DNA from: Enorma burkinafasonensis
GTDB taxonomy: Bacteria; Actinomycetota; Coriobacteriia; Coriobacteriales; Coriobacteriaceae
Assembly: GCF_902150035.1 (NCBI RefSeq)
Contig: NZ_LR597501.1
Coordinates: forward strand, 248,001 to 312,000
Reading direction: 5' to 3'
DNA: 64,000 bases
Below, piece by piece: positions 53,771 through 63,856 of the stretch. Position 1 is the stretch's first letter; every line of letters begins with the position of its first letter. A program made the position numbers and the translations under genes. Below the pieces are notes generated by a model. That model was not told the origin of the DNA and ran no database searches. It saw only the letters and a program-made list of their open reading frames with translations.

Positions 53771-54148
53771 CTACCCCTTACCCACCTCGTCCTCGATGTC
53801 GGCGATCATGCCCTCGTAGCCGGTGAGCGCGGCGAACGGCATGAAGAGGCGGCCGCGGTCGGCATCGGGCACGGCGCGGCGCGGGCCGTCCTCGACGATG
53901 CGGCGGCGGATGTCGGCGAGGATGCGCTCCCGCCGCGCGCGCTCCGCGGGACGGAGCCCGTCCCAAACCTCGATGCCGGGAACGGCATCGAGCGCGGCGC
54001 GGGTGGCGGGGTCGAACGGCGCGGGCGCGCCAGCGGGCGCCTCGGGGGCAGTAGCCGCGCAGGGCCCCGCATCCCCCGCGCGGGCGCCCCGCAGCGCCGC
54101 GCCCGGAAACGCCGCCTCGAGCGCGGCCAGGATCTCGTCCTCACGCAC
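53771..54148 (-). CDS. YolD-like protein coupled to dinB
   Basis: A 125-residue small protein. The C-terminal half matches the YolD-like pattern (RGRLFMPFAALTGYEGMIADIE), a family usually found beside UvrX/DinB polymerases in Gram-positives. The N-terminal part is Ala-rich, with a predicted helix and Arg-rich segment (ERARRERILADIRRRI). The GTG 54148 start overlaps the end of dinB by 8 bp, so it is translated with dinB and under the same SOS box. The YolD role is not established; a polymerase accessory function is inferred from context. Confidence 0.78.
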   Translation of the reverse strand: MREDEILAALEAAFPGAALRGARAGDAGPCAATAPEAPAGAPAPFDPATRAALDAVPGIEVWDGLRPAERARRERILADIRRRIVEDGPRRAVPDADRGRLFMPFAALTGYEGMIADIEDEVGKG

Positions 54149-55436
54149 GGTGGCCCCCGATCTGCCGGTTGCGCTCGCGTGCGTTCGCCTCGGGCTTGAG
54201 GCTCGTCCCGCGCAGGAGCGCGTTCGCGCCGAAGCGCTTGCGCACCGCGACGGAGGCGCGCGCCAGGCGCTCCTCGCGCTCGAGCGCCGCGAGGTCGTCG
54301 AAGAGCGTCGGCGCGGCAAGGCGCGCTGGCACCACGCCCGCAAGCGAGATGTTCACGCGGCGGATGGGCGCGCGGCGCGACACGGTCTCGTCGAAGAGCG
54401 CCATGAGCGCGGCGGCGATCTTGGTCTCCGACGCCGTCACGCAGCCCAGGTGCCGCTGGCCGCCGCCGTGCAGGGAGGGCGGCTCGCCCGCGCCGTCCCA
54501 CGTGCGCAGGATCGCGCCCGAGTAGCCCACCCACAGCCCCACCGTGTCGCAGGCGAGGTACTTCTCGGCGAGGTCCATGCAGCTCCCGAACACCATCTCG
54601 CGCGCGACGGTGCGCGCCTCGCCGAAGGTGTAGTCGCGCATGAGCACCTGGCCGTTGGTGAGGGAGTGCGCCCGCGGCACATAGGCGCGGCAGTCGGCGA
54701 CGGTCGCGGGCTCTATGCCCCATGCGTGGTCGATGAGCACCTCGGCGTTCTTGCCGAACTCGCCGCGCAGGATCTCCGGCCGCTCGGCGCAGACGCCCGC
54801 GAGGTCGTAGATGCCCCGCTTGGCGAGGCGCCCCGCGATGCCGTGCCCGATGCCCCAAATGTCCGTGAGTGGGCGGTGGAACCAGATCTCGCGCCTGAAC
54901 GACTCGTCGTCGAGACGGCCGATGCCGTCGTCCGCGTGCTTGGCCATCACGTCGAGCGCCACCTTGCACAGGAACATGTTGGGGCCGATCCCCGCCGTCG
55001 CGGCGATGCCCGTCCGCTCGCGCACGCGGGCGATGAGCCGGCGGACGAGGGCGCGGGCGTCGAGCCCGTAATGGACGAGGTAGGGCGTCGCATCGATGAA
55101 GCATTCGTCGATCGAGTAGGGCCAGGTTTCCTCCGCCGAGACGAACTCGAGGTACGTGCGGTAGATCTCCGCCGAGACCTCCATGTAGCGGCGCATGCGC
55201 GGCACCGCCGTGATGTAGTCCATGCCCTCCGGGATGTCGCGCACGCGGCAGCGGTTGCGCACGCCCTTGGCCTTGAGCGAGGGGGTGACGGCCAGGCAGA
55301 TGGTGTTGGCACTGCGCTCGGGGTCGGCCACCACGAGGTCGGTCGTAAACGGATCGAGCCCGCGGTCGGTGCACTCGACGCTCGCGTAGAAGCTCTTGAG
55401 GTCGATGCAGATGTAGGTGCGCGCGGCGGCCGCCAT
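54141..55436 (-). CDS. dinB: Y-family DNA polymerase (DinB/UmuC type)
   Basis: A 431-residue translesion polymerase. The palm motif is TYICIDLKSFYASVEC, with the first metal-binding Asp. The second catalytic site is PYSIDECFIDATPY, with the DE pair. The fingers and thumb regions (TAGIGPNMFLCKVALDVMAK, IWGIGHGIAGRLAKRGIYDL) and a little-finger domain with the family's IRRVNISLAGVV stretch follow. It is nearer the UvrX/ImuB-like Gram-positive group than E. coli DinB. I choose ATG 55436 with GGAGG 9 nt upstream over ATG 55442. A LexA-type box lies 20 bp upstream. Confidence 0.94.
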   Translation of the reverse strand: MAAAARTYICIDLKSFYASVECTDRGLDPFTTDLVVADPERSANTICLAVTPSLKAKGVRNRCRVRDIPEGMDYITAVPRMRRYMEVSAEIYRTYLEFVSAEETWPYSIDECFIDATPYLVHYGLDARALVRRLIARVRERTGIAATAGIGPNMFLCKVALDVMAKHADDGIGRLDDESFRREIWFHRPLTDIWGIGHGIAGRLAKRGIYDLAGVCAERPEILRGEFGKNAEVLIDHAWGIEPATVADCRAYVPRAHSLTNGQVLMRDYTFGEARTVAREMVFGSCMDLAEKYLACDTVGLWVGYSGAILRTWDGAGEPPSLHGGGQRHLGCVTASETKIAAALMALFDETVSRRAPIRRVNISLAGVVPARLAAPTLFDDLAALEREERLARASVAVRKRFGANALLRGTSLKPEANARERNRQIGGHRA

Positions 55437-55455
55437 GTGCATCCCCCTCCCATAT

Positions 55456-55469
55456 CGAACAGATGTTCC
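55456..55469 (-). promoter_or_regulatory. LexA (SOS) box of dinB
   Basis: CGAACAGATGTTCC matches the Gram-positive/actinobacterial consensus CGAACN4GTTCG at all but the last base, 20 bp before the dinB start. ACTATACTAC beside it contains a possible -10. Confidence 0.85.
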
Positions 55470-55544
55470 TACTATACTACCGCACCGCGGGGACACCGCC
55501 CGCTCCGCGCACGTCGATTCCATCTCGTGTTCGGTAGGCAAACG

Positions 55545-55558
55545 CGAACTTCTGTTCG
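55545..55558 (+). promoter_or_regulatory. LexA (SOS) box of the divergent small gene
   Basis: CGAACTTCTGTTCG is a perfect match to the CGAACN4GTTCG consensus. It overlaps a GATAAT -10 at 55558-55563 only 7 bp before the ATG, so LexA would block RNA polymerase directly. Confidence 0.9.
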
Positions 55559-55569
55559 ATAATGGGGTC

Positions 55570-55905
55570 ATGGAGTACCGGTCCTCGACATACGGCACCA
55601 AGCGGCGGGTCCACCGCGAGTACGTCGACGTCTACGCCCGCTTCGGGCGAGACGGCGCGATCGAGCCCGTCTGCATTATGTGGAAGGACGGGCGCAGCTT
55701 CCGCGTGGACGAGGTCATCGATGCGGGCGGCTTCGGCACGATGAGCCGCGGGCGGCAGACCGCGCGCTACCGCGTGCGCTTCGGCAGGCACGAAACCGAC
55801 CTCTACCTCGAGCGCCGCGAGGCCAACCCCGCCCTGGGCGCGGACGAGCAGCTCCTGTGGTGGGTGTACGCCCACGACGTCACCAAGCAGCACGAGACGT
55901 GCTGA
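55570..55905 (+). CDS. Small SOS-regulated protein, DUF6504-like
   Basis: A 111-residue basic cytoplasmic protein without signal or membrane segment. Its layout (EPVCIMWKDGRSFRVDEVID, then TARYRVRF, then DLYLERREA and WWVYAHDV) resembles DUF6504-type proteins that accompany ImuB/DinB polymerases in actinobacteria. This is a resemblance by eye, not a search result. ATG 55570 lies about 7 bp after the -10, with only GGGG as a possible ribosome site, so the transcript may be leaderless. The perfect LexA box in its promoter and divergence from dinB make a role in damage tolerance likely. Confidence 0.75.
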   Translation: MEYRSSTYGTKRRVHREYVDVYARFGRDGAIEPVCIMWKDGRSFRVDEVIDAGGFGTMSRGRQTARYRVRFGRHETDLYLERREANPALGADEQLLWWVYAHDVTKQHETC

Positions 55906-55991: not shown

Positions 55992-57722
55992 CTACTCGCC
56001 GTCGCGGTCCCGGCGCGAGAGGCCGTGCCCGCCCGCCATGACGGCGGTGGCGCCGAGCGTGGCCAAACTCGCGCTCGCCAGGCCCATGACGACGACGAGG
56101 TCCGAGGTCTGCGGCATGCGCTCGGCCCCCTGCTCCCCGCCGTCGGCGGCAGCGGTGGCATCGGCGGAACCAGCGCCCTTGCCCCCATCGGCGCCGTCCT
56201 CATCCGGTGCGTCGGCCGACTCCCGGGCCTCAGGCGCGACGTCGTCTGTGTCCCCGGTCGCGGGGTCCTGCCCGGCAGGCGCCTCGGAGTCCGTGCCGTC
56301 CGAGGTGCCGCGCTCGGCGCCATCGGCCTCGGCGGCCTCCGCGGGCGGCTCCTCCCCGTCGTCGCTCTCCACCGCCGGGCGCTGGGGCGCCATGGCCGGG
56401 GGACGCACGCTCGCGGAGCCGTTCACGACGCCACCCGAGGTCACGCCCGTGCCGTCGGGAGTCGACGAGGAGCCGCCGGGCTCGGCGCCCGTGCCCGTCG
56501 CGTCACCGGACTCGGCCCCGCCGGCCGCGGCGTCGCCACCGGAGCTGCCGGCGCTATCGTCAAGGGAGCCCTCGGCCCCGTCCTGGACGCCGTCCGTCGA
56601 GCCGCCCTGCGTGCCGCTCGCGGCCCCGCCGGACGTGGAGCCGGAGCCCCCACCGTCCGCGCCGCCCGCGGTCGATCCCGTGGTGCCATCGGCGGCCCCG
56701 CCCGGGGTGGAGGCGGAGCCCCCGTCAGCCGACCCGCCCGGGGCCGGGGACGACCCGCTGCCGTCGGCCTCGGAGCCGGCGGTGGTGCCGCCCGCGGCCG
56801 CCTCATGGGCCGCGATGAAGGCCAAACAGTCGTCGAGCTCGTTGCGGTAGCGGTTGGTCCAGCCCTTGTAGTACTGCGTCTGCGCGCTGTACTTGGCGAT
56901 ATGGTCGGTCATCTGCGTCGCGAGCGCGGTCACGAACTCGCGGTCGGTCATGTCGTCGCTCAGGTTCGCGCCGGCGAGCACGGGGCGCACGCCGCCGGTG
57001 CCCCACATGTTGGTGAGGCCCCAGACCATGCCCTTCACGCAGTCGGCCCGTCCGGAGAGGTCGATGCCCTGGCTCGCGAGCCAGCGCTCGGTCACCACGT
57101 AGTAGTTGTTGTAGGCGTACGAGTCCTGCAGGGCGCTGAACTCCGAGGGGTTCGCGTCGTAGGCGGCGTACCACGCGTCCTGGACGAGCCTTCCCAGCTC
57201 GGAGAGGGTCTTCGTGCCCGCGTCGTACATCGAGGCGTCCTTGCTCGAGACCTCGTCCGCGCGGTCGAGCACGGGCCCGAGCATCGCGTAGGTCACGGGG
57301 TCGTAGCTGTAGACCGCGCGCAAAAACGGGATGAGCGAGTAGCGGCGGTCGAACTGGTAATAGCCGAGTGCGTTGTAGCCGTCGCCGTACGAGAAGCCCT
57401 GCCGGTAGTTGCCGTGGCTCTCGTACTGGGTGAAGTACTTCATCTCGCTCGAGAGCGAGACCGGGGAGAGCGATGAGGTGGCGGCGCGGGCGGAGCGCGC
57501 CATGGGGACGGCGGCGGGCGCCTCCTCGTAGAAGTCGGCGCGGTCGTAGTCGGCGGGAGCGGGCAGCTCCCCTTCCGCCGTGCCGGCGGCCGAGGCGGCG
57601 TCGGCGCCCTGCACGAGCGCGGCGCCCTCCTGCTCGGCGAAGGCGATGGACGATATCTGGGCGCCTCCGAACACGATCGAGATGGCGAGCCCGGCGGCCA
57701 CGGCAACATGGCGCGTCTTCAT
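55992..57722 (-). CDS. Cell-wall-anchored muramidase-like protein (VgrG3-C-like lysozyme domain)
   Basis: A 576-residue surface protein. A signal peptide (VAVAAGLAISIVFGGAQISSIAFA) leads to a lysozyme-like domain at about 90-320. YFTQYESHGNYRQGFSYGD followed by GYYQFDRRYSLIPFL resembles the muramidase domain seen in VgrG-related and phage-tail lysozymes, with the glutamate in QYESHG as the likely catalytic acid. A Gly/Ser/Ala/Thr-rich linker of about 200 residues spans the wall. The C terminus is a sorting-type signal: MPQTSD, a hydrophobic segment (LVVVMGLASASLATLGATAVMA) and a charged RRDRD tail. MPQTS departs from LPXTG at two positions. ATG 57722 has an AAGGAGGA site. Confidence 0.83.
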   Translation of the reverse strand: MKTRHVAVAAGLAISIVFGGAQISSIAFAEQEGAALVQGADAASAAGTAEGELPAPADYDRADFYEEAPAAVPMARSARAATSSLSPVSLSSEMKYFTQYESHGNYRQGFSYGDGYNALGYYQFDRRYSLIPFLRAVYSYDPVTYAMLGPVLDRADEVSSKDASMYDAGTKTLSELGRLVQDAWYAAYDANPSEFSALQDSYAYNNYYVVTERWLASQGIDLSGRADCVKGMVWGLTNMWGTGGVRPVLAGANLSDDMTDREFVTALATQMTDHIAKYSAQTQYYKGWTNRYRNELDDCLAFIAAHEAAAGGTTAGSEADGSGSSPAPGGSADGGSASTPGGAADGTTGSTAGGADGGGSGSTSGGAASGTQGGSTDGVQDGAEGSLDDSAGSSGGDAAAGGAESGDATGTGAEPGGSSSTPDGTGVTSGGVVNGSASVRPPAMAPQRPAVESDDGEEPPAEAAEADGAERGTSDGTDSEAPAGQDPATGDTDDVAPEARESADAPDEDGADGGKGAGSADATAAADGGEQGAERMPQTSDLVVVMGLASASLATLGATAVMAGGHGLSRRDRDGE

Positions 57723-57911
57723 GCGGTCCTCCTTGGGATGGCTCTTGCGAGCTGGTGCGGATACGGTACGGTTGCAGCAAGCGCCCGAAGGCTCCCCCAG
57801 TATGTCAAGGGCGCGCATGGGGGGTCAATACGAACCGGCAAGGTTCGCGCAATTCAATTAAGGTTCGAGTTCAACTTGAGGGGTACGGGCGGCAGGCCGG
57901 GCGCGTGAACG

Positions 57912-58337
57912 CTAGATGCCCAGGTCGATCTCGGGCACGCGGGCGAGGTCGGCGAGCGTCACGCCGTCGACGTACTCCTCGATCACGGCATCGAGCCCGG
58001 TCCAGAACCTCACCGTCGAGCACAGGCCGGCGCGCGCGCAGGCGCCCTCAAGCCCCTCGCAGGCGACCGGCGCCGTGGTCCCCTCGGCCACGCGCAGGAT
58101 GTCGCCGGCGCGGATCTCGGCGGCCGGCTTGGCGAGCGCGTAGCCGCCCCCCTTGCCGCGCACGCTGCGCAGGTAGCCCGCCTGCATGAGCGGGCGCACG
58201 AGCTGCTCGAGGTACTTGAGCGAGATGTCCTCGCCGTCGGCGATCTCGCGCAGGGCGACCTTTCCCTCGGACCCGCCGAAGGCGGCGATGTAGACCATGA
58301 GGCGCAGGGCATAGCGTCCCTTGGAAGAAATGAGCAT
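57912..58337 (-). CDS. Rrf2-family Fe-S regulator of the suf operon
   Basis: A 141-residue winged-helix regulator starting MLISSKGRYALRLMVYIA. The wing KGGGYALAKP and recognition helix region ISLKYLEQLVRPLMQAGYL match IscR/RsrR/SufR-type Rrf2 proteins. Three cysteines in ACEGLEGACARAGLCSTV (spacing 7 and 5) are in the Fe-S position of the family. It is divergent from sufC, and the gap contains two matching dyads, so it most likely represses suf when its cluster is present and lifts repression when Fe-S demand is high. ATG 58337 has a GAGGGGG site. Confidence 0.92.
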   Translation of the reverse strand: MLISSKGRYALRLMVYIAAFGGSEGKVALREIADGEDISLKYLEQLVRPLMQAGYLRSVRGKGGGYALAKPAAEIRAGDILRVAEGTTAPVACEGLEGACARAGLCSTVRFWTGLDAVIEEYVDGVTLADLARVPEIDLGI

Positions 58338-58484
58338 CTGCTACCCCCTCACGTTGTGCGCACCTTGTGGCGATGCGCTCCGCATGCGCGCCCTCTCCGG
58401 CCACCGCGGTGCGCAGCTGCGCCCGGATGGCCCGAACAGCCTAGATCTTCGCAGGTAGACACTACCGTTTGGAGGTCCGGGCTG

Positions 58485-58509
58485 AATTCCTAGTGAAATA
58501 GTCGGAATT
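58485..58509 (+). promoter_or_regulatory. Upstream operator of the suf promoter
   Basis: AATTCC, 13 bp spacer, GGAATT: a perfect 25 bp dyad directly upstream of the -35. The length matches IscR-type sites and the spacer equals that of the second dyad. Confidence 0.75.
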
Positions 58510-58513
58510 AACC

Positions 58514-58541
58514 TTGACTTCACGGGTTTTCATCTTATCTT
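58514..58541 (+). promoter_or_regulatory. suf operon promoter
   Basis: TTGACT (58514-58519), 16 bp spacer, TATCTT (58536-58541). It lies between the two 13-bp-spaced dyads, 55 bp before the sufC ATG. Confidence 0.7.
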
Positions 58542-58567
58542 TAATCCGAGATAATTCCTAGGATTAA
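58541..58567 (+). promoter_or_regulatory. Downstream operator of the suf promoter
   Basis: TTAATCC, 13 bp spacer, GGATTAA: a perfect 7 bp dyad covering the expected transcription start. A third, related sequence TCCTAGGA lies across its right arm. Confidence 0.75.
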
Positions 58568-58595
58568 CGTCCGAGCGTACCGCAAGGAGCACATC

Positions 58596-59372
<777 letters not shown>

Positions 59373-59381
59373 GAGGCTGCC

Positions 59382-60794
59382 GTGGCCAAGCAACGCACCG
59401 AGGTCGCGGACATCGACCGCACCCTCTACGACATAACCGACAGCGAGGAGGGCTTCGACCGCCTCGACGCCGGCCTCACGCCCGATATCGTGCGTGAGAT
59501 CTCCGAGCGCAAGGACGAGCCGGAGTGGATGCTCGACTTCCGCCTGAAGTCGCTCGAGACCTACCTCCGCATGCCGAACCCCACCTGGGGCCCCTCCATC
59601 GCGGGCCTCGATATGGACCACATCGTCACCTACGTGCGGCCCAACACCGACCAGAGCGCCACGTGGGACGAGGTGCCCGAGGACATCAAGAACACCTTCG
59701 AGCGCTTAGGCATCCCCGAGGCCGAGCGCAGCTACCTCGCCGGCGTGGGCGCCCAGTACGACTCCGAGCTCGTGTACCACAACATGCAGGATACGGCCTC
59801 GAAGATGGGCATCGTCTACTCAGGCATCGAGGAGGCGCTGCACGTCCCCGAGTGGGAGGCGCTCATCCGGGAGAAGTTCATGACGCTCATCCCGCCCACG
59901 GACCACAAGTTCTCCGCGCTCCACGGCGCAGTGTGGTCGGGCGGCTCGTTCGTCTACGTGCCCGCCGGCGTGAAGCTCGACTTCCCGCTCCAGAGCTACT
60001 TCCGCCTGAACGCCAAGGGCGCCGGCCAGTTCGAGCACACGCTCATCATCGTGGAGGACGACGCGGACCTCCACTTCATCGAGGGCTGCTCGGCACCCAA
60101 GTACAACGTGGCGAACTTGCACGCCGGCGCCGTCGAGCTCTTCGTGGGCAAGCGGGCGCACCTGCGCTACTCGACCATCGAGAACTGGTCGAAGAACATG
60201 TACAACCTGAACACCAAGCGCGCCCGCGTGGACGACGAGGGCGAGATCGAGTGGATTTCCGGCTCGTTCGGCAGCCACGTGGGCTACCTCTACCCCATGA
60301 GCGTGCTCAACGGCCGCAAGAGCCGCTCGAGCTTCACGGGCATCACGTTCGCCGGCGCGGGGCAGAACCTCGATACCGGCTGCAAGGTGGTGCTCAACGC
60401 CCCCGACACGAGCGCGACCGTCGAGACGAAGGGCATCTCCAAGGGCGGCGGCATCCAGACCTTCCGCAGCTCCGTGGTAGTGACGCCCAAGGCCGAGGGC
60501 GCGCGCGTGAGCGTGAGCTGCGCCTCGCTCATGCTCGACGACGAGTCCCGCTCCGACACCATCCCCGCGATGGACGTGCGCGCGAAGAACGTCGACATCG
60601 GGCACGAGGCCACCATCGGCCGCATCGGCGACGACAAGGTGTTCTACCTCATGAGCCGCGGCATCCCCGAGGAGGAGGCGCGCGCGATGATCGTGAACGG
60701 CTTCGCGAACCCGGTGGCCAAGGAGCTGCCGCTCGAGTACGCCGTCGAGATGAACAACCTCATCAAGCTCGAGATGGAAGGGGCGATCGGCTGA
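59382..60794 (+). CDS. sufB: SUF Fe-S scaffold protein SufB
   Basis: A 470-residue scaffold on which clusters are built with SufC and SufD. The conserved C-terminal core is clear: HTLIIVEDDADLHFIEGCSAP, FVGKRAHLRYSTIENWS, GSFGSHVGYLYPMS and DKVFYLMSRGIPEEEARAMI. The start is GTG with AGGAGG 6 nt upstream. Its TGA overlaps the ATG of sufD by one base. Confidence 0.97.
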   Translation: MAKQRTEVADIDRTLYDITDSEEGFDRLDAGLTPDIVREISERKDEPEWMLDFRLKSLETYLRMPNPTWGPSIAGLDMDHIVTYVRPNTDQSATWDEVPEDIKNTFERLGIPEAERSYLAGVGAQYDSELVYHNMQDTASKMGIVYSGIEEALHVPEWEALIREKFMTLIPPTDHKFSALHGAVWSGGSFVYVPAGVKLDFPLQSYFRLNAKGAGQFEHTLIIVEDDADLHFIEGCSAPKYNVANLHAGAVELFVGKRAHLRYSTIENWSKNMYNLNTKRARVDDEGEIEWISGSFGSHVGYLYPMSVLNGRKSRSSFTGITFAGAGQNLDTGCKVVLNAPDTSATVETKGISKGGGIQTFRSSVVVTPKAEGARVSVSCASLMLDDESRSDTIPAMDVRAKNVDIGHEATIGRIGDDKVFYLMSRGIPEEEARAMIVNGFANPVAKELPLEYAVEMNNLIKLEMEGAIG

Positions 60795-62104
60795 TGGAGC
60801 AGCTGAAGATCAGGCACGCGAGCGCCATGCCCGCCCCCACGTGGCGCTGGCTGCACATGAACGATACCGAGATCCGCCTGCCCGCGGAGCTCGTGCGCAC
60901 GGGGGACGTCGAAATCGAGGCGGCCGACGAGCTGCTGAACACCGCGGTGACGTTCGAGGGCGCCGTGGCGGGGCTGCAGGAGCGCGTGGACGCCGCGCGC
61001 GCAGGCGCCCCCGACACCCGTGCATGCCTGCGTGCCGCGCTGGGAGCGGACCGCGCGAAGGCCGATTGCGGCGCGCTCGGCGACCTCGACGTGCCCGCCC
61101 TCTCCACCTATCAGGAGCGCACCGCGCGCGAGGAGGTGGCAGGCGACGTCGCCCGCGCCTTCGAGACGGGCATCGGCACGGACGCCCGCTCGTACCTCAA
61201 CTTCGCCGCCGGCGAGACCGTGACCATCGCGACCGGGACGGGGGCCGAGGGACGCGCCTGCGTGCGCGTGAACGGCGAGGCGGGGGCGACGGTCGCCTCG
61301 AGCATCGACGCCGTCGCGGCGCCCGACTCGACCCTCTCGCTCACGATCGCGCTCGACGCGGCAGGCGACGGCGGGAGCGGCGAGCCGCAGGGCGCATCCG
61401 GCGTCGTGGGCTCCGAGCTCCGCGTGTTCGCCGGCGCCCGCTCGCGCGTGGACGTCACCGTCTTCGTCACGGCCGATTCCGGCTTCACCGCGCTCGACGA
61501 CTCGGGCTACGTGCTCGACGAGGGCGCCCGCGTAACCGTGCGCCACATCGTGCTCGGCGGCGGCACCACCGCCACCGGCATGGCCGCCGACCTGCGCTCG
61601 GATACCGCGCGCCTCGACATCGACACCCGCTACCTCGCCGCCGGATCGGAGGTGCGCGACTTCAACTACGTCGTGCGCCACCGCGGCAGAAGGACCGTTT
61701 CGAACATCATCGCCAACGGCGTGCTCGCCGGCACGAGCAAGAAGTGCCTCCGCGGCACGATCGACCTCGTCCACGGCTGCAAGGGCAGCGAGGGCACCGA
61801 GCGCGAGACCGTGCTGATCGCCGACGAGGGCGTCGAGAACAAGACCGTCCCCACCATCCTCTGCGACGAGGACGACGTCGCGGGCAACCACGGCGCCACC
61901 ATCGGGCACGTGCGCCCCGAGCAGCTGTTCTACCTCGAGAGCCGCGGCGTCTCCCCCGAGGCCGCCGAGGCCCTCTTCATCCGCGCGAAGCTCGAGGACG
62001 CCGCGCTCTGTGCACCCGACGGGCGCATCCGCGCGGCCGTCGTGCGCCTGGGCGACCGGCTCATCGACGGCTTCGCCGAGGAACTCGAAGGAGATGCCGC
62101 ATGA
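60794..62104 (+). CDS. sufD: SUF Fe-S assembly protein SufD
   Basis: A 436-residue SufB-like partner. The N-terminal half is Ala-rich and divergent (MPAPTWRWLHMNDTEIRLPA). The C-terminal half has the family pattern: DFNYVVRHRGRRTVSNI, RGTIDLVHGCKGSEGTERE, CDEDDVAGNHGATIGHV and LFYLESRGVSPEAAEALFI. It is coupled to sufB at its start and to sufS by an ATGA overlap at its end. Confidence 0.95.
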   Translation: MEQLKIRHASAMPAPTWRWLHMNDTEIRLPAELVRTGDVEIEAADELLNTAVTFEGAVAGLQERVDAARAGAPDTRACLRAALGADRAKADCGALGDLDVPALSTYQERTAREEVAGDVARAFETGIGTDARSYLNFAAGETVTIATGTGAEGRACVRVNGEAGATVASSIDAVAAPDSTLSLTIALDAAGDGGSGEPQGASGVVGSELRVFAGARSRVDVTVFVTADSGFTALDDSGYVLDEGARVTVRHIVLGGGTTATGMAADLRSDTARLDIDTRYLAAGSEVRDFNYVVRHRGRRTVSNIIANGVLAGTSKKCLRGTIDLVHGCKGSEGTERETVLIADEGVENKTVPTILCDEDDVAGNHGATIGHVRPEQLFYLESRGVSPEAAEALFIRAKLEDAALCAPDGRIRAAVVRLGDRLIDGFAEELEGDAA

Positions 62105-63444
62105 TCGATACCGATTCCGTAGCCTGCGAGAGCTGCACCGCGCCCGCACCGGGCATGGTCGACGCGAGCGACGCGGCGTCCCGCGCCTGGCCGCGCGTGG
62201 ACATCGAGACCAACCCGTTCAAGTCGGCGTTCCCGCTGTTCACCGAGCATCCCGACATCGCCTTTTTGGACAGCGCCGCCACCGCGCAGCGCCCCGCGTG
62301 TGTGCTCGAGGCCCAGCGGCGCTTCTACGAGACCATGAACGCCAACCCGCTCCGCGGCCTGTACAGCCTCTCGGTCGAGGCGACCGAGGCCATCGCGGGC
62401 GTCCGCGCCCAGATCGCCGGCCTCATCGGCGCCATCGACGACGCCGGGACCCCGCGGGCGCGCGAGGTGGTCTTCACGCGCAACACGAGCGAGTCGCTGA
62501 ACATCGTGGCCCGCTCCTTCGCGCCCAGCGTGCTCGGGCCCGGCGACGAGGTGGCCATCACCATCATGGAGCACCACTCCAACCTCATCCCCTGGCAGCA
62601 GGTCTGCGCCGCCGCGGGCGCGAGGCTCGTCTACCTCTACCCCACCAAGACCGGCGAGCTCACCGACGCCGAGATCGCCGCTAAGGTGGGCCCCCGCACC
62701 AAGATCGTCGCCGCCGCGCACGTCTCGAACGTGCTCGGCGTCGAGAACCCCATCGAGAAGCTCGGCCGCGCGGTACACGCGCAGGGCGGCTACCTCGTGG
62801 TCGACGCCGCGCAGTCCGTGCCGCACCTGCCGGTCGACGTCCGCGCGCTTGGCGCCGACTTCCTCGCCTTCTCGGTGCACAAGGCGCTCGGCCCCATGGG
62901 CGTGGGCGTGCTCTGGGGGCGCTATGAGCTGCTCGACGCGATGGAGCCCTTCCTCACCGGCGGCGAGATGATCGACTCCGTGACCGAGCAGGGCGCCGTC
63001 TGGGCGCCGGTGCCCGAGAAGTTCGAGGCCGGAACGCAGGACGCCGCCGGCATCTACGCTACGGGCGCGGCCCTCGACTACCTGGTGAACCAGGTGGGCT
63101 ACGAGACGGTACAGGCGCGCGAGGCGGCGCTCGTCCACTACACGATGGGCCGGCTCGTCGAGCTCCCCTACGTGAAGGTCATCGGCTCCATCTACTGGGA
63201 CCGCCATCACGGCGTCATCAGCTTCAACGTCGACGGCATCCACCCGCACGACGTCGCGAGCATCCTCGACATGCAGGGCGTCTGCATCCGCGCCGGCCAC
63301 CACTGCGCGCAGCCGCTGCTCACCTGGCTCGGCGTCGAGAACCTCGCCTGCTGCCGCGCGAGCGTGGCGTTCTACAACGACAAGCACGACATCGACGCCT
63401 TCGTCGACGGCCTCGAGACGGTCTGGAGGACGTTCAATGGGTAA
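62101..63444 (+). CDS. sufS: Cysteine desulfurase SufS
   Basis: A 447-residue PLP enzyme taking sulfur from cysteine for cluster assembly. TRNTSESLNIVARS, MEHHSNLIPWQQ, VDAAQSVPHLPVD and the PLP lysine in AFSVHKALGPMGVG are typical. The persulfide cysteine is in CIRAGHHCAQPLL. The first 30 or so residues, with CESC, are an extra leader before the usual start of the family. ATG 62101 overlaps sufD; the stop overlaps sufU by 8 bp. Confidence 0.96.
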   Translation: MIDTDSVACESCTAPAPGMVDASDAASRAWPRVDIETNPFKSAFPLFTEHPDIAFLDSAATAQRPACVLEAQRRFYETMNANPLRGLYSLSVEATEAIAGVRAQIAGLIGAIDDAGTPRAREVVFTRNTSESLNIVARSFAPSVLGPGDEVAITIMEHHSNLIPWQQVCAAAGARLVYLYPTKTGELTDAEIAAKVGPRTKIVAAAHVSNVLGVENPIEKLGRAVHAQGGYLVVDAAQSVPHLPVDVRALGADFLAFSVHKALGPMGVGVLWGRYELLDAMEPFLTGGEMIDSVTEQGAVWAPVPEKFEAGTQDAAGIYATGAALDYLVNQVGYETVQAREAALVHYTMGRLVELPYVKVIGSIYWDRHHGVISFNVDGIHPHDVASILDMQGVCIRAGHHCAQPLLTWLGVENLACCRASVAFYNDKHDIDAFVDGLETVWRTFNG

Positions 63445-63856
63445 CCTCTACACCTCGACCACCTTCATGGAGCACAACTCGCACCCCGACTACAAGTACG
63501 AGATGGACTCCCCCACCCATAGCCACGAGGGCATCAACCCCAGCTGCGGCGACGAGCTCACGCTGCAGCTCCGCGTCGAGGACGGCGTGATCGAGGAGGC
63601 GAGCTTCACCGGGCACGGCTGCGCGATCAGCCAGGCATCGGCCGACATCATGGCCGACCTCATCACCGGCGAGACGGTCGACGAGGCGCGCCGGCTCGCC
63701 GGGCTCTTCCTCGCGATGGTCCGCGGCGAGGAGCTCTCCGAGGACGATATGGAGGACCTCGACGAGGCAGCCCAGCTCAAGGACATCTCGCACATGCCCG
63801 CCCGCGTGAAGTGCGCCGAGCTCGCCTGGCGCACCCTCGACGGCATGCTCGCCTAG
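63437..63856 (+). CDS. sufU: Zinc-dependent sulfurtransferase SufU
   Basis: A 139-residue SufU that accepts the persulfide sulfur from SufS. The three cysteines and the aspartate typical of the Zn site are visible: NPSCGDELTL, GHGCAISQAS and RVKCAELAW. The family insertion between the second and third cysteine is present, separating it from IscU. ATG 63437 overlaps the sufS stop. It is the last visible gene of the operon. Confidence 0.96.
   Translation: MGNLYTSTTFMEHNSHPDYKYEMDSPTHSHEGINPSCGDELTLQLRVEDGVIEEASFTGHGCAISQASADIMADLITGETVDEARRLAGLFLAMVRGEELSEDDMEDLDEAAQLKDISHMPARVKCAELAWRTLDGMLA

Follow-up and report, generated by a model that had tools for sequence, protein, structure and literature searches.

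The suf promoter of Enorma burkinafasonensis is flanked by two dyads whose presence there is confirmed to be more than chance, and which we read, with a probability of about 0.7, as putative operators of the neighboring IscR-like Rrf2 protein, a repressor through which Fe-S status would feed back on suf. The analysis started from a 64,000-nucleotide stretch of contig NZ_LR597501.1 (hereafter the window, to which all coordinates refer) and extended to relatives in the Coriobacteriaceae, the family of E. burkinafasonensis (f1), the Eggerthellaceae (f2), and a further family (f7). What was observed directly is the two sites, with their geometry and conservation, and the fact that they go together with this Rrf2 protein.

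The interval 58338-58595 is exactly the entire intergenic region between rrf2, which reads leftward, and the suf operon, which reads rightward (Table 1). Both dyads have a YY-N13-RR frame, they bracket a TTGACT-N16-TATCTT promoter, and their centers are 57 bp apart. The preliminary description had placed AATTCC-N13-GGAATT before the -35 element and TTAATCC-N13-GGATTAA over the start of transcription, and both were found in these positions, the latter as an extension of site 2 by one base per side (58541-58567). Judging from the -10 element, suf transcription is expected to start near 58548, within site 2. An RNA stem-loop in the suf leader was rejected by reasoning, as this predicted start comes after the left arm of site 2. 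Simple scans of the intergenic region for an rrf2 promoter gave no convincing candidate; by our reading, a weak -10-like stretch is present on the opposite strand of site 1.

Table 1. Features of the rrf2-suf region, in window coordinates
Feature	Position	Strand	Basis or remark
rrf2, 141-aa IscR-like regulator	57912-58337	-	PF02082; divergent from sufC
Site 1, 25-bp dyad AATTCC-N13-GGAATT	58485-58509		ends 4 bp 5' of the -35 element
-35 element TTGACT, suf promoter	58514-58519	+	conserved in 11-sequence alignment
-10 element TATCTT	58536-58541	+	16-bp spacer to -35; promoter scan and 11-sequence alignment
Site 2, 25-bp dyad TAATCC-N13-GGATTA	58542-58566		abuts the -10 element, over the inferred start
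AAGGAG, likely sufC ribosome binding site	58584-58589	+	sequence
sufC	58596-59372	+	TIGR01978, above cutoff
sufB	59382-60794	+	TIGR01980, above cutoff
sufD-like	60815-62104	+	best model sufD, 148.8 bits, below cutoff of 222
sufS	62104-63444	+	TIGR01979, above cutoff
sufU	63437-63856	+	TIGR01994, above cutoff

The rightward genes form a SUF system, with sufC, sufB, sufS, and sufU in a row and four models above cutoff. The divergent protein belongs to the Rrf2 superfamily (PF02082, 117.7 bits against a cutoff of 30, E 5e-34; TIGR00738, 114.2 bits against 73.3) and has, as previously described, three Fe-S-type cysteines, arranged as Cys93-x6-Cys100-x5-Cys106, a triad kept in all 72 distinct suf-linked Rrf2 proteins that were collected. 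Its best match in the PDB is the Rrf2-family regulator 4cic (E 2e-22), which we take to be the IscR of Thermincola potens, and its recognition helix reads ISLKYLEQL, compared with ISLSYLEQL in Escherichia coli IscR. It scored far below the cutoff of the IscR equivalog model TIGR02010 (99.4 bits against 207.55) and below those of the CymR model NF047409 (97.9 against 195) and the NsrR model NF008240 (49.2 against 182). The cluster ligands of E. coli IscR are described as three cysteines and His107 (PMC8593673), and at the place of the histidine the protein has Val109, invariant in 11 aligned proteins. The protein looks as if it is IscR-like in its action at type 1 sites, yet given the IscR model score and this valine it cannot be assigned as IscR proper. 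The one other Rrf2 protein found in the E. burkinafasonensis genome has an unrelated recognition helix.

In the protein tree, the suf-linked Rrf2 proteins of the Coriobacteriaceae form one supported group (100/94, 35 rows), which is nested with most Eggerthellaceae suf proteins in a larger supported group (100/91, 58 rows) that includes no cysK-linked row; the suf proteins of a Slackia group, like L094, fall outside the 58-row group, and the program cautioned that the tree is based on few columns. In one Collinsella subgroup (C. intestinalis, C. stercoris, and relatives; L065-L068, L177), Rrf2 carries an insertion within its N-terminal half, and site 1 was not seen in four of the five genomes. 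On the other side of rrf2, a minus-strand frame at 55992-57818 encodes a large protein that has a VgrG3-like C-terminal domain match (PF21277, 33.3 bits), ends in a long low-complexity tail, and may be a secreted cell-wall enzyme, and a second minus-strand frame at 54141-55601 reads, in our interpretation of the sequence, like a Y-family DNA polymerase.

The independent test of the dyads came from matrices applied across families. A matrix built from 27 distinct Eggerthellaceae sites, none of them from the family of the window, ranked the two dyads first and second over the 64-kb window (25.1 and 19.4, with 1.2 in third place), and the best control score in the reversed window was 14.0. Conversely, a Coriobacteriaceae matrix scored at least 12.4 in 19 of 22 sufC upstream regions of families f2 and f7, where reversed sequences reached 8.3 at best; the exceptions were L081, at only 7.9, and L092 and L103, in which nothing was found. 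Pattern searches agree with the matrices. TAATCC-N13-GGATTA has a single exact occurrence in the E. burkinafasonensis genome, namely site 2, and with up to two mismatches 12 places were found, compared with five for the reversed pattern; the other 11 all have two mismatches. In a separate pattern search, two other places with one mismatch, one inside the rnpA frame and one over the likely ribosome binding site of an aldolase-like gene, were rejected as further targets in this genome, and two-mismatch places gave nothing at the three loci scored by matrix (L128, L130, L131) (the gene names rnpA, aldolase, serC, and cysK are our reading of the open reading frames). Across 21 genomes, the pattern with at most one mismatch occurred at 14 distinct places in nine genomes, nine at suf and five at serC, and the reversed pattern at none.

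Conservation was counted in the sufC upstream regions of 66 genomes, one region each (44 f1, 20 f2, and two f7), with a site accepted at 15 or more of 18 positions and a pair defined as two accepted sites with a spacing of 55-57 or 66-67 bp. This comparison of relatives, of the kind that the preliminary description had proposed as a check, found the dyads conserved: site 2 was present in 63/66 regions and both sites in 50/66 (38/44 in f1, 12/20 in f2, and 0/2 in f7), leaving 16/66 without a full pair. One of the three regions counted as lacking site 2, L066, has a single dyad that was scored as the first of a pair. These pair counts used a consensus that drew on some of the counted sequences, and many Collinsella sequences are near-identical, so that the sample holds 36 distinct versions of site 1 and 38 of site 2, a few of them weak by matrix. 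With 30 shuffles per region, the best shuffled pair scored 29/36, a value exceeded in 53 regions and not in 13; the pair in the window scores 36. Of the two sites, site 1 is the more frequently lost. The spacing of the 50 pairs was 55-57 bp in 46 and 66-67 bp in four (G232; G336, G253, and G193), the latter falling in two separate parts of the tree and being longer by about one helical turn, which hints, from few cases, that two bound dimers would keep a fixed angular relation on the DNA. A spacing of 73, outside both classes, was seen in G056. Beyond these families, the single upstream region of family f3 scored 18.6, and among 33 from family f5, presumably Atopobiaceae, there was one close match (L231, 30.3), followed by L248 at 13.4. 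The suf promoters of f5 (L120-L124, L227-L241, L243-L255) have a related but different element, for example AAATGCC-N12-GGAATT.

The half-site had been held to differ from the E. coli IscR motif, and this is true of its inner bases, which read YYTAG or YYGAG instead of YYGAC; the idea of a wholly new half-site was rejected, as the 25-bp frame and the core are type 1-like. Compared with the E. coli IscR type 1 consensus, ATASYYGACTRWWWYAGTCRRSTAT, which has a 25-bp frame (PMC6599224), site 1 matches 15 of the 17 core positions, the best place in the window (the next has 13), and site 2 matches 11/17; when all 25 positions are counted, site 1 has 17 matches and shares second place, an unrelated place having 18. 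Sites A and B of E. coli iscR likewise have the 25-bp YY-N13-RR frame and a GA(C/G)T-type core, are read by a protein with a YLEQL recognition helix, and form two sites at an Fe-S assembly promoter. In 25 kb around E. coli iscR, the Coriobacteriaceae matrix placed the two iscR promoter sites at the top (10.0 and 6.5, the next being 3.4), while another 25-kb stretch of E. coli holds a place scoring 6.7. The Eggerthellaceae matrix did not find the iscR sites, and no matrix match was obtained at the promoters of E. coli erpA and nfuA, for which type 1 sites have been described (PMC8593673). Of the residues through which E. coli IscR contacts DNA (PMC9973013, PMC11475020), Glu43 and Gln44 are kept within YLEQL and Ser40 is replaced by lysine. 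The differences are that the E. coli iscR sites lie side by side, whereas those in the window bracket the promoter; that the target is suf, which in E. coli is controlled through a type 2 site (PMC12594620); and that the protein has Val at the His107 place and C-x6-C in place of C-x5-C, with different outer operator bases.

The binding, cluster, repression, and signal that we infer from these observations would operate as follows. When Fe-S clusters are plentiful, Rrf2 would carry a cluster on its three cysteines and bind both sites as dimers; on site 2 it would block RNA polymerase, because this site lies on the predicted start and abuts the -10 element, and from this position Rrf2 is likely to act as a repressor. 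Site 1, just 5' of the -35 element, would strengthen the repression and might extend over the divergent rrf2 promoter as well. With clusters short or damaged, Rrf2 would release the DNA and sufCBDSU would be expressed. The weak -10-like stretch opposite site 1, and a genome (G007) in which rrf2 starts 24 bp from that site, suggest that site 1 may also control rrf2. An unlikely, though still sizeable, alternative to this division of labor is that Rrf2 at site 1 serves mainly as an activator or to control the divergent promoter of rrf2 itself, so that repression of suf would fall to site 2 alone: relative to the inferred starts, site 1 is centered near -51 and the dyads at serC at -59 to -70, the G007 arrangement fits self-control, and several genomes have site 2 without site 1, but site 1 persists in five of the six genomes in which rrf2 is no longer divergent, and the -35 and -10 elements look good enough without an activator.

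The main rival to Fe-S feedback, in light of the dyads at serC and cysK and of the tree pattern, is that the same Rrf2 protein binds the dyads in response to cysteine or sulfur supply, as CymR does with CysK, and we regard this as improbable without being negligible. In 7 of 24 loci (scores of at least 17.4; the others at most 1.6), all of them Coriobacteriaceae (L273, L276, L277, L271, L269, L270, and L272), serC is preceded by a single dyad centered 59-70 bp before its inferred start; the serC product is on the route to serine and from there to cysteine. Several Coriobacteriaceae and Eggerthellaceae genomes have paralogous Rrf2 genes oriented divergently to cysK, some with closely similar dyads; 32 cysK matches were found, 30 had loci and were scored, and 13 of these had a dyad at 13.0 or above (for example L194, L195, L206, L213, and L214). 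Within the Coriobacteriaceae, the six loci with Rrf2 beside cysK had a dyad in G005, G007, and G105 and none in G006, G011, and G056. An Rrf2-iscSU cluster of Clostridium perfringens responds to cysteine (PMC2940859), and in Clostridium the motifs of CymR and IscR are said to resemble each other (PMC3828012). The cysteine triad does not separate the two signals, since the cysK-linked proteins also keep cysteines in that region. Against a cysteine signal, the cysK of E. burkinafasonensis has no dyad and its serC (G000:C9 near 10219) has, by eye, a seemingly decayed one at the same distance from the -10 element, leaving suf as the one clear dyad target in this genome; in addition, most suf-linked Rrf2 proteins are separate from the cysK-linked proteins in the tree. 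A broader proposal, to which we give little credence, is that the Coriobacteriia have one operator language with paralogous Rrf2 readers joining suf, serC (serine supply), and cysK (cysteine synthesis). If this were true, the suf and cysK regulators would be sister proteins still sharing a site, which would show a split of Fe-S from cysteine sensing, and the choice of protein would be tuned by the inner bases, CCGA or CCTA, and by the spacing of the promoter-bracketing pair, 55-57 or 66-67 bp.

The pairing of the dyads with this Rrf2 protein was followed through genomes in which the gene order has changed. Six Collinsella-group genomes lack the rrf2-sufC adjacency: five carry rrf2 immediately after sufU, on the same strand, and G090 has it a few kb downstream on the same contig. 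The dyads stay at sufC in all six, both in five and site 2 only in one, so that physical linkage is not required. SufB (at E 1e-60) was absent from all 15 genomes picked for having no close Rrf2, out of 85 without a match, one of the 15 (G001) being 76% complete. Rrf2/SUF co-occurrence is imperfect: one Eggerthellaceae genome (G113) has a suf-type Rrf2 and no SufB, with a dyad 95 bp 5' of rrf2 (L084, 1406-1430), and the more distant Rrf2 genes of four genomes (G158, G305, G376, and G021) likewise occur without SufB. That the dyads bind another, unlinked regulator, for example of the Fur or DtxR type, with Rrf2 an incidental neighbor, is very improbable, for although the sites outlast the departure of rrf2 from sufC and a few genomes have Rrf2 without SufB, the moved gene sits directly after sufU in five of six cases, close Rrf2 and SufB are jointly absent in 15/15 picked genomes, a similar dyad accompanies some of the cysK-linked paralogues, and the dyads share the geometry of IscR type 1 sites. 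The suggestion that the dyads might define the recognition sequence of a Coriobacterial suf regulator thus holds in that they are conserved, accompany this Rrf2 and suf, and come from a coriobacterial organism, and does not hold in that the half-site is not of a new kind.

Other characterized systems combine some of these properties. In the Pseudomonas aeruginosa isc promoter, IscR has paired type 1 sites, of which site A begins AATCCTGAG, close to the dyads described here, whereas the sites there are adjacent, from -67 to -18, and the target is isc (PMC6599224). CymR of Bacillus subtilis and Staphylococcus aureus is close in sequence to our protein (E 3e-21) and recalls its cysK-linked paralogues, but the protein falls below the CymR model and its target is suf. 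RisR of Myxococcus xanthus is likewise an IscR-like but distinct Rrf2 protein that represses suf, and in its dyad, GAC-N7-GTC, the inner spacing equals that of the suf dyads; it differs in being described with a [4Fe-4S] cluster, and the IscR specificity residues, two of three of which are kept here, are not kept in it (PMC9973013).

Within the parts of the literature that our search covered, subscription papers and RegPrecise being outside it, we found no earlier report of Rrf2 or IscR control of suf in Coriobacteriia, Collinsella, or Eggerthella. The dyads and the Rrf2 protein provide a concrete predicted regulator-operator pair for gut Actinomycetota (Enorma, Collinsella, and Eggerthellaceae), with a predicted regulon that is small, consisting of suf and, in some species, serC, and for which natural variants of spacing and gene order exist.
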